DNA of 45,863 bases from a bacterium (GTDB lineage Bacteria > SZUA-79 > Acidulodesulfobacterales > Acidulodesulfobacteraceae): assembly GCA_003232385.1 (NCBI GenBank), contig QIJE01000036.1:1-45863 (forward strand), in the 5' to 3' direction. Every line of letters begins with the position of its first letter. Positions within the stretch are counted from its first letter, which is position 1. Below are positions 30,563 to 39,715 of this stretch, piece after piece. The position numbers were made by a program, and so were the translations under genes. The notes beneath the pieces were generated by a model. It had not been told where the DNA came from. It made no database searches and saw only the letters and a program-made list of their open reading frames with translations.

Positions 30563-30594
30563 TTTTACTGCTCTCTTTTGAGAACATATATGAA

Positions 30595-30765
30595 ATGGAT
30601 TCAGTAAAACAGTGTGTTAAACCTTCCGGATATTACAATCAAAAGGCTATGCTTATGATTTTAGGGAAGTTGAATGAAATGACCTCTCATACCTGCTTCC
30701 CGCAACCGTTTTCGGGCTTTTGTTCGGAGCATATATTAACCAAAAAACATTTTATTATTCGGCAC
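30595..30765 (+). pseudogene. Scrambled partial copy of the nth-tauE region
   Basis: Three short colinear blocks match the region 36.4-37.5 kb: 30622-30644 with 36391-36413 (nth, CCTTCCGGATATTACAATCA), 30651-30738 with 37017-37106 (tauE, about 90 bases with a few mismatches) and 30739-30758 with 37493-37512 (tauE end). The intervening sequence is deleted. It is a decayed duplicate and not a gene, although 119 codons are open. It runs into the 3' end of arsA. Confidence 0.85.
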
Positions 30766-30811: not shown

Positions 30812-32575
30812 TTAAACTACGGCTGAGTATAATAAGTCTAAGGCATTCGGACTATTTATTTCCCCAATGCATTGCGGCATCAAAAAAGCGGGAACGTCAA
30901 ACTTCCGTTGTATGGAAAGAAGATAAGACTCCTGTAATTTTCTCCTATTTTTAAAAATGCTGTCGCTAAAAATATCGTTAAGTATATAATTGACGACTAT
31001 AAAGGATACATTTACTCCGGCTAATTTCAAATCGTCGTAAGCCCTCTTGGCTTCCTCAATGGGACTAAATTCAGGATAAAGACAGAGTGAAAAAATTGTC
31101 TTCTTCTCATTTTTGAGAATATTTATAAACCTCTCTAATTTTGGATCCTTCTTGTCCGCTTTAGCATATTCCATACTTATATATAAAAGCCTTAAGGCGT
31201 GACCGGTAGGGGCGGCATCAAATATTATCACGTCAAAGTCTTTATATTCGAAAAAATAGCTGCTGAATTTTTTAAAAACGGCAACCTCTTCCGTACATGG
31301 AGAATTCAGCTCTTCCTCTAAGACTTTTAAGGAATCTTCATTGCTTGAATGTGATTTGAAATATTCGACCGTCTCTACCTTGTATTCATCTATCGCCTGA
31401 GCCGGCGATATTCCTGCAGCATAAAGTTCATATTTTCCGTCTAATTTTTCAGGAACCTCGTTTAAACCGGTAAGCCCCATTATTTCGGCAATATGATTTG
31501 AAGAATCGGTGGATACGATCAATGTTTTTTTACCTATAGAGGCAAAATATTTTCCGAATAAAAGAGAGGATGTAGTTTTTCCAGTTCCGCCTTTGCCGGT
31601 AAAAAAGAAATAAAACGGCGTTTCCGTCGGGGTTATATTTTTAATAAGTTTATTATTTTCCTCTTTAATATTCTTTAAGTCATCGTTAAAACAGGAAAAC
31701 TTTTCATCCGGTCTATCTTTTTCGATATTATCGGAGAAAAAATTAATCAAAGAAGCTATACCCTTAACCTCACCATCTTTTAAATATATTTTAGATGTTT
31801 TATAGTTTAATAAATTAACCTGCCTTAAAATTTCTTGCTGTGATGAAATAAGCCCCTTGAAATCATTATTGCCAAATAATATATATGGAAAAACGGCGTT
31901 AACCATGATTTCTATATTAGTTATGCCGAGTTTTTTAATCTCGTTTGCAGAGGATTTAATCTCTTTCAGATCCAACTCTTGCGGATGCATTACGAAAACA
32001 AATGTCGTTAATTTAGGATTTTTTAAAACATTTAGGGCGGCCTTATAACTATCGTAATATTCGCCTAGATTAACGACCGGTCCCATACAGGTCATACCTG
32101 CTCCCTTTTTGACCTCGTCTATGTACACGGTCCATTCGAGAGGAAGCTCAAGCAGTCTAAGCGTGTGAGCGGATGGGGCGGTGTCGAATATTATGTTGTC
32201 ATAATCATTTTTTAAAAAAAACTCCGTAAAGCCATTAAAAAAAGCAATTTCAGAGGTGCACGGGGATCTAAACTCCTCTTCTATCATGCCTACTACTTCC
32301 TGCGGCAAAATATCTTCGCTATCCCCCAAAATCTTTTTTTTGTACTTTAAAATCTCGGTGTCCGAATCCATCTCTACTGCATAAAGATTGTTCAACCCTT
32401 CTATTTTTTTTTCCGCTCCACCGATATTTTGCTCAAAAACATCGCCGATATTAGATGCCGGATCGGTAGAAACAATCAATGTCTTTTCGCCGTTAAGCGA
32501 AAGTTTGACGGCAAAAGCAGAAGATATGGTTGTCTTGCCGACCCCGCCTTTTCCGTGAAAAAAATAATAATGCAT
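30812..32575 (-). CDS. arsA: Arsenite-stimulated ATPase ArsA, two-domain form
   Basis: 587 residues with two tandem ATPase halves: Walker A HGKGGVGKTT (residues 7-16) and TGKGGTGKTT (326-335), each followed by the DTAP(S/T)(G/A)H signal segment (131 and in the second half DAAPTGH). The three cysteines that bind As(III)/Sb(III) in plasmid R773 ArsA are present: Cys106 (SPCTSEIA), Cys163 (MTCMGP) and Cys427 (SPCTEEVA). It normally powers the ArsB or Acr3 efflux pump, but no pump gene is in this window. It follows arsD by 13 bases in arsR-arsD-arsA. Confidence 0.96.
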   Translation of the reverse strand: MHYYFFHGKGGVGKTTISSAFAVKLSLNGEKTLIVSTDPASNIGDVFEQNIGGAEKKIEGLNNLYAVEMDSDTEILKYKKKILGDSEDILPQEVVGMIEEEFRSPCTSEIAFFNGFTEFFLKNDYDNIIFDTAPSAHTLRLLELPLEWTVYIDEVKKGAGMTCMGPVVNLGEYYDSYKAALNVLKNPKLTTFVFVMHPQELDLKEIKSSANEIKKLGITNIEIMVNAVFPYILFGNNDFKGLISSQQEILRQVNLLNYKTSKIYLKDGEVKGIASLINFFSDNIEKDRPDEKFSCFNDDLKNIKEENNKLIKNITPTETPFYFFFTGKGGTGKTTSSLLFGKYFASIGKKTLIVSTDSSNHIAEIMGLTGLNEVPEKLDGKYELYAAGISPAQAIDEYKVETVEYFKSHSSNEDSLKVLEEELNSPCTEEVAVFKKFSSYFFEYKDFDVIIFDAAPTGHALRLLYISMEYAKADKKDPKLERFINILKNEKKTIFSLCLYPEFSPIEEAKRAYDDLKLAGVNVSFIVVNYILNDIFSDSIFKNRRKLQESYLLSIQRKFDVPAFLMPQCIGEINSPNALDLLYSAVV

Positions 32576-32588
32576 TTTTAGACCCCTC

Positions 32589-32921
32589 TTATTGCAATTT
32601 CATTTTTTTAGAAATATAGTCGTAAATTTCTTTTACCTCCGGATACCTTCCGTATGTTATAACCTTGCCGTCCAAAATGCACACGGGTAATGCCGCCTTA
32701 CCTTCATTTTTTATCAGAATCTGCACGGAAAAGTTTTCAAGGAATTTCTTGGGCTCCTGAGATATGGATTGTCGTTTAATTTCAACACGTTCTCCGAAAT
32801 CCGATTTTAATTTGTCTATCAAATCCCTCATTTTTATAAGCTTTTCATCTGAATTAGGACCGCAAACTCCGGTAGAACAGCAAAGTGCCGGATCGAAAAT
32901 TTCAAAAACAATCTTATTCAT
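32589..32921 (-). CDS. arsD: Arsenic metallochaperone ArsD
   Basis: 110 residues from ATG 32921, chosen because AAGGAGG lies upstream; an open extension to 32981 has no ribosome site. The Cys motif FDPALCCSTGVCGP (Cys14, Cys15, Cys20) equals the CCx4C site of R773 ArsD (Cys12, 13, 18). It takes As(III) from thiols and hands it to ArsA, and may weakly repress the operon. The C-terminal Cys pairs of R773 ArsD are absent, as in most ArsD proteins. Confidence 0.95.
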   Translation of the reverse strand: MNKIVFEIFDPALCCSTGVCGPNSDEKLIKMRDLIDKLKSDFGERVEIKRQSISQEPKKFLENFSVQILIKNEGKAALPVCILDGKVITYGRYPEVKEIYDYISKKMKLQ

Positions 32922-33030
32922 ATTTAACGTCCTCCTTAAAAATAACCTTTTTATAAGACTCCCCTGCCTATATGAAAACAATAATTCACACGCATCCGTC
33001 GGGACGCTACCCTGCGGGCGGCATATATGC

Positions 33031-33354
33031 TCAATCTTTATCGGCGCAATTAATGCTTTGAACTTCTTTCATACTTTTCACGCCGAGTATGTCGCCGTAA
33101 ATATCCTCAATTTCTTTAAACGCACCTTTATTAAGAGAATAATAAACCCATCTTCCGGTCTTCCTTCCGTTAATTAATCCTATTTTTTTTAATGCGGACA
33201 AATGGTGCGATACCAAAGTCTGATCAAGCCCAAGCTCTTTATATATAACACATACGCATTTCTCTCCGTTTTTTAATGCGGAAACGATTTTAAACTTGCT
33301 TTCGTCGCCAAGCAATTTAAAAAACGTTACAAGTCGCAGTTCGCCTTTATTCAT
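33031..33354 (-). CDS. arsR: Arsenical repressor ArsR
   Basis: 107 residues. Winged helix-turn-helix of the ArsR/SmtB family; helix alpha3 carries EKCVCVIYKEL with Cys33 and Cys35, the As(III) site of the ELCVCDL type (the third Cys of R773 is missing; Cys103 near the end might complete it). LDQTLVSHHLSALKKIGLI is the recognition helix region. It represses its own operon until As(III) binds. A 19-bp-arm palindrome lies 33 bases upstream over the -10 element. arsD follows after a 109-base gap. Confidence 0.94.
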   Translation of the reverse strand: MNKGELRLVTFFKLLGDESKFKIVSALKNGEKCVCVIYKELGLDQTLVSHHLSALKKIGLINGRKTGRWVYYSLNKGAFKEIEDIYGDILGVKSMKEVQSINCADKD

Positions 33355-35203: not shown

Positions 35204-35596
35204 TTATTTTTTTTCGATCATAGGGCAGATCGAGGAACCCGAATCTGCTGTTTTTTCCTTTAAACATTTTTTAAGCTTTGCATTTAATTCCTTAAGTCCG
35301 CTTATCTTCAACTCTATTTCGTTTATTTTATTTTTAATTAATTTTTTCGTATAAGCACACGGTCTTTTGCCTTCATTGTAAATATTAATAATCTCTTTAA
35401 TTTCATTTAATCTAAAACCCTGACTTTTAGCTTTTATAATAAAATTAATTCTTTCAAGGGTTTTATCCCCGTATATCCTGTATCCGTTCTCCTCTCTTGC
35501 CGGCTCAGGCAAAATTCCTATAGATTCATAAAATCTTATTGTCTTGGGGTTAATATTAAATTTTTTCGATAAGCCCCCTATAAAATATCTCTTCAT
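35204..35596 (-). CDS. MerR-family metal-sensing regulator
   Basis: 130 residues. N-terminal MerR winged helix (LSKKFNINPKTIRFYESIGILP, RIYGDKTLERINFIIKAKSQGF), a dimerisation helix, and three cysteines at 80, 111 and 124 (RPCAYT, KKCLKEK, SICPMIE). These correspond in place to the Hg(II) ligands Cys82, Cys117 and Cys126 of MerR, although the last spacing is longer. It should twist a 19-20 bp spacer promoter when metal binds; exactly such a promoter precedes the next gene upstream, the thioredoxin-like gene. Metal identity (Hg, Pb, Cd or other) cannot be read. Confidence 0.88.
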   Translation of the reverse strand: MKRYFIGGLSKKFNINPKTIRFYESIGILPEPAREENGYRIYGDKTLERINFIIKAKSQGFRLNEIKEIINIYNEGKRPCAYTKKLIKNKINEIELKISGLKELNAKLKKCLKEKTADSGSSICPMIEKK

Positions 35597-35684
35597 AAAC
35601 CACGCTCCCGGTAAAGGGTATCATGATCGACCCATTTTACGCTATATATCGAATATAACATATTTTATATAATTTCAATATCTT

Positions 35685-35729
35685 AATTATAACCCCTCTC
35701 CGCCTTGACGACAGAGAGGGGTTATAATT
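35685..35729. terminator. Hairpin after the thioredoxin-like gene
   Basis: Perfect 16-bp stem (35685-35700 with 35714-35729) with a 13-base loop and five CCCCT/AGGGG pairs, 20 bases after the thioredoxin-like stop. The T-run is on the plus strand (TTTTTAG); on the minus strand the tail is only AATTAAG, so termination before merR may be partial. Confidence 0.7.
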
Positions 35730-35749
35730 TTTAGCGACATTTTATCGCA

Positions 35750-36013
35750 TTATACGGGCTTTCCTATTCCTGCCGCCTTCAAATCTTCCGCCGTCGGCTT
35801 TCCTCTTTCACAACAATCAAGAATTTTTCCATTCACGACAACGGTAGGAACGGAATTTATCCCATATTCGTCAGATTTTTCAATCCCATTTTTATGCAAA
35901 TCATAAATCGTTACGTCACAGTTCGGACATGAAAGTTCCTTTACGAGTTTAACCGTTTCATCGCAAATCGGACAACCGGCGGTAAAAACCTCCACCTTAC
36001 GTTTTTCACTCAT
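35750..36013 (-). CDS. Cys-rich thioredoxin-like protein
   Basis: 87 residues from ATG 36013 behind GGGGGTGA; an upstream in-frame GTG overlaps that site. Thioredoxin/glutaredoxin fold: VEVFTAGCPICDE with a CPIC redox motif (Cys14, Cys17) and SVPTVVV with the cis-Pro at 56. Two extra Cys pairs, CPNC (29, 32) and CC (67, 68), suggest metal or arsenic thiol binding. It follows a MerR-type promoter and precedes merR, so it is likely the regulated target. It would reduce or carry a bound metal or disulfide; the actual substrate is unknown. Confidence 0.82.
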   Translation of the reverse strand: MSEKRKVEVFTAGCPICDETVKLVKELSCPNCDVTIYDLHKNGIEKSDEYGINSVPTVVVNGKILDCCERGKPTAEDLKAAGIGKPV

Positions 36014-36068
36014 TTTAATCACCCCCTTAATACCGATAGTATTATTTGATAAATTAATCTATAATCTA

Positions 36069-36100
36069 ATTATAAACTATCCAGTATACTGGAATGTCAA
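36069..36100 (-). promoter_or_regulatory. MerR-type promoter with 20-bp spacer and central dyad
   Basis: On the minus strand TTGACA (36095-36100), a 20-base spacer and TATAAT (36069-36074). The spacer holds the perfect 14-base palindrome TCCAGTATACTGGA (36080-36093). An over-long spacer with a central dyad is the hallmark of MerR-family promoters. It lies about 56 bases before the thioredoxin-like gene. Confidence 0.85.
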
Positions 36101-36147: not shown

Positions 36148-36819
36148 ATGACCGATAAAAATAAGGGCAACATTTTACATGTAATTTATGATATCTTGCT
36201 CGGTGAATTCGGGCATATGAACTGGTGGCCGGCAAAATCGGATTTTGAGGTCATGATAGGGGCAATACTAACGCAAAATACCGCATGGACAAATGTCGAG
36301 AAAGCTATAGACAACTTAAAGACACACGATCTTTTATCCTTTGAAGCCATTTATAAAATTGATTCCAATTTATTAAAAGAGCATATTAGGCCTTCCGGAT
36401 ATTACAATCAGAAGACGTTAAAGATTAAGGCATTTATAAATTTTGCAAAAAAAGAATATAATTTTTCCATAGATTTGATGAAAAAAGAGAACACATACGT
36501 GATGAGAGAAAAGCTTTTAACTATTTTTGGCATAGGCGAAGAAACGGCGGACAGCATTCTCTTATACGCACTAAAAAAACCGGTATTCGTAATAGATGCA
36601 TATACAAGAAGAATACTCGAAAGGCATAATATAATCGAAAACGCCTTTAAGGAAAAATATGAGCATATACAAAGATTCTTTACGGCTAATATCCCCCGGG
36701 GTAAAGCAAATGTCTCCTTATATAACGAATATCATGCCCTAATAGTAAAAACGGGAAAGATGTTCTGCAAAAAAACCCCTCAATGTGATGATTGCCCCTT
36801 AAAAAAATTACAGGTATAA
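36148..36819 (+). CDS. HhH-GPD DNA glycosylase, endonuclease III-like
   Basis: 223 residues. FEVMIGAILTQNTAW is the endonuclease III / MagIII family start; the helix-hairpin-helix GIGEETADSIL and VIDAYTRRIL with catalytic Asp150 follow. The lyase Lys (Lys120 of E. coli Nth, in GVGRKTA) is replaced by Glu132, so it should be a monofunctional glycosylase, as in the MagIII 3-methyladenine type. The C-terminal cluster shows three cysteines (207, 213, 216) and no fourth, so a [4Fe-4S] cluster may be incomplete. Ends 9 bases before tauE. Confidence 0.85.
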   Translation: MTDKNKGNILHVIYDILLGEFGHMNWWPAKSDFEVMIGAILTQNTAWTNVEKAIDNLKTHDLLSFEAIYKIDSNLLKEHIRPSGYYNQKTLKIKAFINFAKKEYNFSIDLMKKENTYVMREKLLTIFGIGEETADSILLYALKKPVFVIDAYTRRILERHNIIENAFKEKYEHIQRFFTANIPRGKANVSLYNEYHALIVKTGKMFCKKTPQCDDCPLKKLQV

Positions 36820-36827
36820 AATACGTT

Positions 36828-37571
36828 ATGCACCCAATATCCACATTTGACATAATAGCGGGAATCGTAATAGTTTTGATAGCTTTTTTCGTTAGAGCTA
36901 CTATAGGTTTCGGTTCCGGATTAATTTCCGTATCGCTATTGACAATATTTATCCCGATAAGTATCACCGTTCCGGCAGTTTTCGTACTTGATTTTCTGGG
37001 TAGTATTTTACTCGGGGCTTATGATTTCAAGGAAGTTGAATGGAATGACCTCCCATACCTGCTTCCCGCAACCGTTTTTGGGCTTTTGTTCGGAGCATAT
37101 ATATTGAAATACGCAGACCCGCAAAAACTAACCGTCTTTCTGGGGATTTTTATTTTGGCATATGTAATATATGCCATGAGTATTAAGCAGGATAAGCTTC
37201 CTTACGCAAAAAATACCGTAGGTGTACCCTTGGGGTTTTTAGGGGGATTCATCGGCAGTTTGTACGGCGGCGGTGGCCCGCCTATAGTGGCTTATCTGCA
37301 AATGAAACATCATGGAAAACGCACATTTAGGGCAACATTTCAAATAGTTGCAATCACGGACAGTGTTTTTAGATTAATGATTTACACCTTTCTCGGGCTC
37401 TTAACCGTCAAGGCATTAAAACTGTCCGCTGTTCTAATACCACCCGTATTAATAGGTCTTTTTTTAGGCAATAAGTTTCATTTTGTCATAAACCAAAAAA
37501 CATTTTATTACTTGGTAATGATAATTTTATCATTAGCGGCAACAGCTTTGATAGTACACTCTATTATCTGA
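36828..37571 (+). CDS. TauE/SafE-family sulfite/anion permease
   Basis: 247 residues from ATG 36828, 8 bases after the glycosylase stop; an in-frame TTG at 36792 overlaps that gene and is less likely. Seven to eight membrane helices. The two repeats of the family are visible as FFVRATIGFGSGLISVSLL and LGGFIGSLYGGGGPPIVAYL. Members export or import sulfite, sulfonates or sulfoacetate; substrate here is unknown. A decayed partial copy lies at 30651-30758. Next gene is a DsrE protein, so a sulfur theme is possible. Confidence 0.85.
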   Translation: MHPISTFDIIAGIVIVLIAFFVRATIGFGSGLISVSLLTIFIPISITVPAVFVLDFLGSILLGAYDFKEVEWNDLPYLLPATVFGLLFGAYILKYADPQKLTVFLGIFILAYVIYAMSIKQDKLPYAKNTVGVPLGFLGGFIGSLYGGGGPPIVAYLQMKHHGKRTFRATFQIVAITDSVFRLMIYTFLGLLTVKALKLSAVLIPPVLIGLFLGNKFHFVINQKTFYYLVMIILSLAATALIVHSII

Positions 37572-39340: not shown

Positions 39341-39715
39341 TTACGAACAACATCCTCGTCCTTCAGAAAAAACACCGGAAAATTCTATTTCGCCGGATAG
39401 ACGCTTTACATAATATTCCGGATCTTTCTGAAAAACAGTCATACAATGCGGACACTTGCAAAAATTGAATCTCTCACCCCGATAGTTGATTTCCACAGTT
39501 TGACTTACCGGTTTTTCCGCTAAACAACTCGGACACACGACTATATCGGTAGTCTCCTTGAGCAGTGCCTCGGGATTTTTTTCGAACATAACGGCGCATC
39601 CGTCGCAGCAGAACGAATATTTTTTTTCTCGGTATTTCCGCGTTACCGCACTCTCCCCTTTAATGCCCAATCTTACGAGGGAACAACCGCATGTAAAACA
39701 AATCGGCGTCTTCAT
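39341..39715 (-). CDS. Double YHS/TRASH-like Cys-rich metal-binding protein
   Basis: 124 residues with 13 cysteines. Two similar modules: C6-x2-C9 then FCCDGCAVMFEKNPEALL (Cys36, 37, 40), and C61-x2-C64 then FCKCPHCMTVFQKDPEYYV (Cys86, 88, 91). FxxxxxCxxxFxxNPE is the YHS/TRASH signature of copper and heavy-metal binding proteins. It ends in GRGCCS, adding a third Cys pair. No signal peptide. It is likely a soluble metal sponge or chaperone. GGAGG and a TTGACA promoter lie upstream. Family is clear; metal and partner are unknown. Confidence 0.82.
   Translation of the reverse strand: MKTPICFTCGCSLVRLGIKGESAVTRKYREKKYSFCCDGCAVMFEKNPEALLKETTDIVVCPSCLAEKPVSQTVEINYRGERFNFCKCPHCMTVFQKDPEYYVKRLSGEIEFSGVFSEGRGCCS

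Follow-up and report, generated by a model that had tools for sequence, protein, structure and literature searches.

The question raised by this locus is what a MerR-type regulator and a small, cysteine-rich thioredoxin-fold gene do as a pair, and which signal they answer. Regulators of the MerR family act on a dyad in an over-long promoter spacer and activate upon metal-ion binding, and among bacterial metal resistances the Mer systems have been studied best. We analyzed a 45,863-nucleotide stretch of contig QIJE01000036.1 from a member of the Acidulodesulfobacteraceae (the whole stretch is referred to as the window), together with the rest of its genome and related loci. Our preferred reading, to which we assign a probability of roughly 0.55, is that the locus is a MerR-activated unit whose six-cysteine thioredoxin-fold protein (Trx, gene trx) would serve as an Hg(II) or soft-metal carrier or reductant. 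An earlier note had described a TTGACA-N20-TATAAT promoter with a perfect dyad, followed by a cysteine-rich thioredoxin-like gene and a MerR, and these coordinates and sequences were verified. The features are as follows:

36069 to 36100, minus strand: MerR-class trx promoter, TTGACA-N20-TATAAT (TTGACA at 36100-36095, 20-bp spacer, TATAAT at 36074-36069), called from sequence and from an architecture that recurs before the trx operons of many phyla
36080 to 36093, no strand assigned: perfect operator dyad, TCCAGTATACTGGA, inside the 20-bp spacer between TTGACA and TATAAT
35750 to 36013, minus strand: trx, 87-aa thioredoxin-fold protein (ATG at 36013, stop at 35750), assigned from Pfam, a structure model, Foldseek and cysteine conservation
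35688 to 35726, minus strand: hairpin between trx and merR, possibly a terminator or attenuator, with a weak U tract (-29.5 kcal/mol, z = -7.25)
35204 to 35596, minus strand: merR-type regulator, 130 aa, of a two-cysteine subclass (C80 and C124, with an additional non-conserved C111), assigned from Pfam, a cysteine table and a tree

Read along the minus strand from 36100, the order is promoter with dyad, ribosome-binding site, trx and merR, with the strong ribosome-binding site (GGGGGTGAT) directly upstream of the trx ATG. Because the hairpin 3' of trx is strong, the trx transcript may stop there, and merR may be expressed by read-through or from its own promoter. The palindrome by itself was dropped as evidence, since 14-bp palindromes occur at chance frequency in the window (7 perfect examples seen versus 6.3 expected). 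The exact promoter with a 19- or 20-bp spacer and a 7/7 dyad was found once, versus 0.03 per window simulated under a first-order (dinucleotide) null model, and the motif, with up to two mismatches allowed, also occurred once, versus 0.05 expected. When the trx operator was searched genome-wide, the only zero-mismatch match was the window site, and the two-mismatch matches resembled background.

Stronger evidence than these chance statistics was provided by the conservation of the promoter among relatives. We assessed 28 sites from many phyla, located upstream of trx operons or of partner merR genes, and found that 23 combined TTGAC[ACT] with a -10-like hexamer at a spacing of exactly 20 bp and with a dyad of at least 6/10 symmetry; among random 360-bp segments drawn from these loci, 4.7% satisfied the same criteria, part of them overlapping the true sites. 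Most trx operons of the relatives begin at a MerR-type promoter with a 20-bp spacer. Half-sites of the TCCAG/CTGGA type, as in the window, precede trx or its operon at five loci (L009, L010, L011, L053 and L057), and the linked MerR at L009, L010, L053 and L057 belongs to the clade of the window MerR. Judged from this architecture and its conservation, trx is very probably under MerR control, and the window MerR is predicted to bind the window dyad.

The regulator possesses the N-terminal MerR helix-turn-helix and the MerR DNA-binding domain that define the family (PF00376, 51.5 bits; PF13411, 60.1 bits; PF09278, 53.5 bits; all above cut-off), and its presumed target promoter, TTGACA-N20-TATAAT enclosing TCCAGTATACTGGA, has the dyad and the 19-20 bp spacer of the family. 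The earlier note had credited it with Hg-type cysteines, a description that was not borne out. Its cysteines are C80, C111 and C124; in an alignment with Tn501-type MerR, Bacillus-type MerR, ZntR, CadR and CueR as references, which also served for the tree, the equivalents of Tn501 C79 and C123 were kept and that of C114 was replaced, so that the three ligands of the Tn501-type Hg(II) regulators (C79, C114 and C123) are incomplete. C111 matches none of the Hg-ligand positions, and the closest orthologue lacks it. In the tree, the window MerR did not group with known Hg regulators and formed with nine other rows a separate clade (support 100/97), apart from Tn501 MerR, ZntR, CadR and CueR, in which all 10 rows lack the C114-equivalent cysteine. 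Its score against the Hg(II) MerR model (TIGR02051) was 102.5 bits versus a curated cut-off of 150.85, and an Hg-type MerR was rejected on cysteines, score and tree.

The missing third ligand bears on a rival explanation, namely that the signal is not Hg but another metal, either Cu(I)/Ag(I) or Cd/Pb/Zn, and that Trx handles this metal or its redox damage. The two-cysteine clade is consistent with such a metal, and the top NCBIfam scores of the regulator, for CueR and MerR, were equal and both under cut-off (CueR, 103.2 bits versus 147.4). However, a CueR assignment did not hold, as the selectivity position that separates +1 from +2 ions carries Cys and not the Ser of CueR, and only one of the two C-terminal cysteines is present. 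A cysteine at the C79 position has been described for regulators that respond to +2 ions and, wherever it was tested, proved essential (PMC3431237). C80 of the window MerR occupies this same position, and its retention makes a divalent soft metal likely as the signal. Cyanobacterial and Hymenobacter relatives adjoin multicopper oxidases, RND or P-type pumps, and a Cys/Met-rich exported peptide sits between trx and merR in one genome (G009), yet the commonest neighbours in an unbiased sample were Mer-specific transport genes and not copper genes. We regard a non-Hg metal as possible but unlikely, and from the sequences we would put Hg(II) as the main signal at about even odds.

Trx possesses three cysteine pairs, C14PIC17, C29PNC32 and C67C68. 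It passed the gathering cut-off of Thioredoxin_3 (PF13192; 35.5 bits versus 24.8) and none of the NCBIfam curated cut-offs, reaching 31.2 bits with the MJ0307-type small thioredoxin model (cut-off 92.75) and 24.8 bits with the MTH895/ArsE thioredoxin-like model (TIGR00412; curated cut-off 62). An AlphaFold2 model, computed from an alignment built without plasmid-record rows, displayed a minimal thioredoxin fold (E-H-E-H-E-E-H; mean pLDDT 75) whose Foldseek matches were thioredoxins, and the closest PDB sequences were the mini-thioredoxins 1fo5 and 1nho. Among 24 family members, C14 and C17 were each conserved in 24/24, C29 in 22/24, C32 in 23/24, C67 in 21/24 and C68 in 20/24, which makes the six cysteines a family signature and not a peculiarity of the window gene; the cis-Pro position is conserved alongside the CxxC. 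The window gene thus belongs to a MerR-linked six-cysteine Trx family, defined here by the CxxC, C29/C32, the CC pair, a MerR neighbour and a promoter with a 20-bp spacer, whose members carry no annotation more specific than "thioredoxin family protein", "thioredoxin" or "glutaredoxin".

The weak likeness to the MTH895/ArsE model raises a second alternative, an arsenic resistance unit in which Trx would be ArsE-like or a reductant and would act with the arsR, arsD and arsA genes on the same strand 1.9 kb downstream (33354-30812). The model cut-off was missed, and two unrelated genes intervene, encoding a PLD nuclease-like protein and, by inspection, a chorismate-binding-type enzyme. Trx was beside arsD or arsA in no relative examined, and an Acr3 match was not found in the genome. 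With the relatives lending no support and no Acr3 match in the genome, the arsenic module was rejected and is considered quite improbable. The arsR-arsD-arsA cluster of the window (30812-33354) encodes a two-domain ArsA and lacks an adjacent arsenite permease.

To determine how widely the pair is distributed, we searched a Trx profile against 386 genomes, 30 of them from the home family and most of the others representing one bacterial family each. This search recovered 17 matches, of which 14 were strong (>100 bits) and sharply set off from the rest. A metal-type MerR lay within about 1.3 kb of all 14, versus 0/11 control loci, four of which surround other, unrelated thioredoxin-fold matches. 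The survey that the earlier note had proposed as its check thus came out in favour of the pair, with both the MerR adjacency and the promoter with its dyad conserved. A further alternative, that Trx is an ordinary house-keeping thioredoxin or glutaredoxin lying beside MerR by chance, agrees with the standard fold and the kept CxxC and cis-Pro position; however, the 14/14 adjacency in diverse genomes, the conserved MerR-type promoters, the six-cysteine signature and a sporadic distribution (2/30 in the home family) make it the least probable of the readings considered.

Mercury-resistance genes were frequent in these neighbourhoods. Genes for MerT, MerP, MerF, MerC-like proteins or MerA were found within about 5 kb of 10/14 strong matches, comprising MerT, MerP or MerF in three genomes (G371, G258 and G249), MerT with MerA in another (G136), and a MerC-like membrane protein, encoded between merR and trx, in six (G265, G232, G283, G362, G085 and G208). 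The Pfam MerC model was passed by G283 and narrowly missed by G232 and G362, and the call in G265, G085 and G208 is based on 45-53% identity to the G362 protein. At two Nitrospirae loci (L010 and L011), trx is surrounded by genes for MerR, MerT, MerP and a P-type ATPase; Chloracidobacterium (L012) carries MerR-Trx-MerA; and annotated plasmids carry Trx-MerR-MerF in Stanieria, Trx-MerR-MerT-MerP in Burkholderia and MerR-Trx in Halobacillus. Two exceptions were noted: a Hymenobacter locus with a CsoR-type repressor instead of MerR and copper genes around trx, and L013, where a MerR was not found at the trx locus.

The constancy of the partner suggests yet another role, in which Trx acts mainly on the regulator, reducing or demetallating MerR to end the response. 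MerR is the sole constant partner in most small pairs, and in Chloracidobacterium MerR and Trx share one open frame. The same Trx, however, is partnered by MerR proteins of two distant clades and in one case by CsoR, and it often lies beside transport genes, so that we view this role as very improbable. The Chloracidobacterium frame (L012 485-1192, from a metagenome-assembled genome) is 235 aa long, contains an ambiguous base, and may represent a fusion or overlapping genes.

Several additional features were observed around the relatives' trx genes. A MerR - MerC-like - Trx operon recurs at L056, L058, L059, L060, L062 and L063; MerA was not found in the stretches examined of these six loci, and in the genome of L060 (G362) it lies about 6.6 kb from trx. 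The MerC-like protein of L058, L059, L062 and L063 bears an additional N-terminal cysteine-containing domain. Small exported Cys/Met- or CP-rich peptides are encoded beside trx in three unrelated genomes (L009 1627-1896; L010 4814-4939; L029 2738-2935 and 3862-4059), and a Pfam match was not found for those of L009 and L029. A Phenol_MetA_deg-type putative outer-membrane protein is encoded directly 3' of trx at L057 (2839-3735), L053 and L056. A Cys-rich double-YHS protein of the window (39341-39715) has a 56% identical homologue in an unrelated genome (G034), about 1.8 kb from trx (L034 3534-3896).

The window itself holds no mer operon, that is, no merR together with merA or a mer transporter in one cluster as in the relatives. 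The earlier note had stated that no mer reductase or transporter is present, which stands for the window and fails for the genome. On another contig, a MerA with an N-terminal HMA domain was identified (G000:C10:6803-8215; 485.7 bits versus a curated cut-off of 454.45), and its promoter is TTGACC-N20-TATAAT enclosing TTATAGTATAGTATAA. A MerT-like frame of 180 aa at the start of contig G000:C3 (L077 792-1334) scored 19.7 bits, under cut-off, and is preceded by TTGACC-N20-TAAAAT with a dyad closely resembling that of the unlinked merA. A three-cysteine MerR was found on contig C8; MerC was not found in this genome. Because MerA, the MerT-like gene and the three-cysteine MerR are on separate contigs, the source organism has a scattered mer regulon, to which the module is probably an accessory. 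The suggestion that a metal is answered by a single redox or carrier protein must accordingly be revised, as relatives link Trx to mer transport and sometimes to MerA, and the genome itself possesses MerA and the MerT-like gene. The half-sites nevertheless differ, TCCAG for trx versus TTATA/TATAAGG for merA and the merT-like gene, and with its different operator and regulator class the trx-merR pair may form its own regulon, answering a signal that is related yet distinct.

MerA was not tied to trx, and the co-occurrence of the two was weak: outside the home family, MerA above cut-off was recorded in 2/12 trx-positive versus 1/55 trx-negative genomes, and a dependence of trx on MerA was dropped. 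Most genomes of the home family contain MerA and lack trx, with trx in only 2/30, which indicates that trx is accessory and probably mobile. In G009, trx is close to a transposase-like gene (by inspection). In the window, a decayed partial copy of the neighbouring nth-TauE pair lies at 30568-30762 (86 nt at 94%, 47 nt at 81% and 28 nt at 89%), and together with the intact pair (36148-37571) this remnant flanks the block from ars to merR-trx, a hint of insertion with duplication. A phage origin of the locus was set aside, as no match was found in phage records.

In the preferred reading of a MerR-activated soft-metal unit, the activator would bind the dyad in the 20-bp spacer and, upon binding a thiophilic divalent ion, would untwist the promoter, switching on trx transcription. 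With its three cysteine pairs, the thioredoxin-fold protein made from trx would act in the cytosol. Its most likely task is to take up Hg(II), or a soft metal like it, at the CxxC pairs, to hold the two-coordinate ion on a CPxC pair, to pass it along further pairs and, in the source genome, to hand it to MerA. It might also, or instead, keep thiols reduced under metal stress. Metal identity, metal binding by Trx and transfer to MerA are predictions from sequence comparison; metal carriage seems to us about evenly balanced against pure redox work, and a plain redox-repair role may apply. Counting against the preferred reading are the missing third Hg ligand, the distinct operator, the weak tie to MerA, the CsoR of Hymenobacter and the absence of MerR at L013. 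A more tentative variant is that the minimal trx and merR form is a stand-alone thiol-based defence without MerA, within an unrecognised, widespread Hg or soft-metal class that combines a dedicated six-cysteine Trx with a MerR subclass sensing through two of the three classical ligands.

Compared with known systems, the locus resembles mer operons (MerR, MerT, MerP, MerC, MerF and MerA) in its MerR-type activator and its dyad promoter with a 20-bp spacer, and the relatives' Trx lies inside or beside such operons; it differs in that the window holds only the regulator and Trx, with MerA and the MerT-like gene on other contigs. Trx is a small Cys-pair protein with a proposed role in binding Hg(II) and relaying it, and may be the thioredoxin-fold equivalent of the carriers NmerA and MerP, whose fold is the ferredoxin-like HMA fold with GMTCxxC instead of a thioredoxin fold with CPxC. 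It shares the minimal fold of Thioredoxin_3 (PF13192) and the small thioredoxins MTH895/ArsE and MJ0307, but falls below the cut-offs of the latter two and possesses conserved C29/C32 and C67/C68 and the MerR linkage. PMC6741143 describes MerA and the MerR-type regulator Slr0701 as unlinked in the Synechocystis genome, resembling the scattered mer regulon seen here. The MerA-like enzyme of Synechocystis depends on glutaredoxin 1, a thioredoxin-fold partner (as cited in PMC8261052), a precedent that makes such a partner of MerA plausible, although the Synechocystis partner is an ordinary glutaredoxin and ours is a MerR-linked six-cysteine protein. A description of this Trx family, or of any thioredoxin-fold member of mer clusters, was not found in the open-access literature searched, in agreement with the earlier note, which knew of no such described system.

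We would class the family, which is present in many phyla and usually sits among mercury-resistance genes, as an accessory, undescribed in the literature searched, to a type of system already known. A conserved thioredoxin-fold gene is linked to mer across phyla and has so far been annotated just as "thioredoxin family protein". The two-cysteine MerR clade raises the question of how such a regulator senses with one ligand missing. If Trx carries Hg(II) or feeds electrons to the system, it would represent a second fold among the known Hg relay proteins, and this would make it easier to understand why a Mer-type transporter in a cluster without a nearby MerA does not poison the cell.
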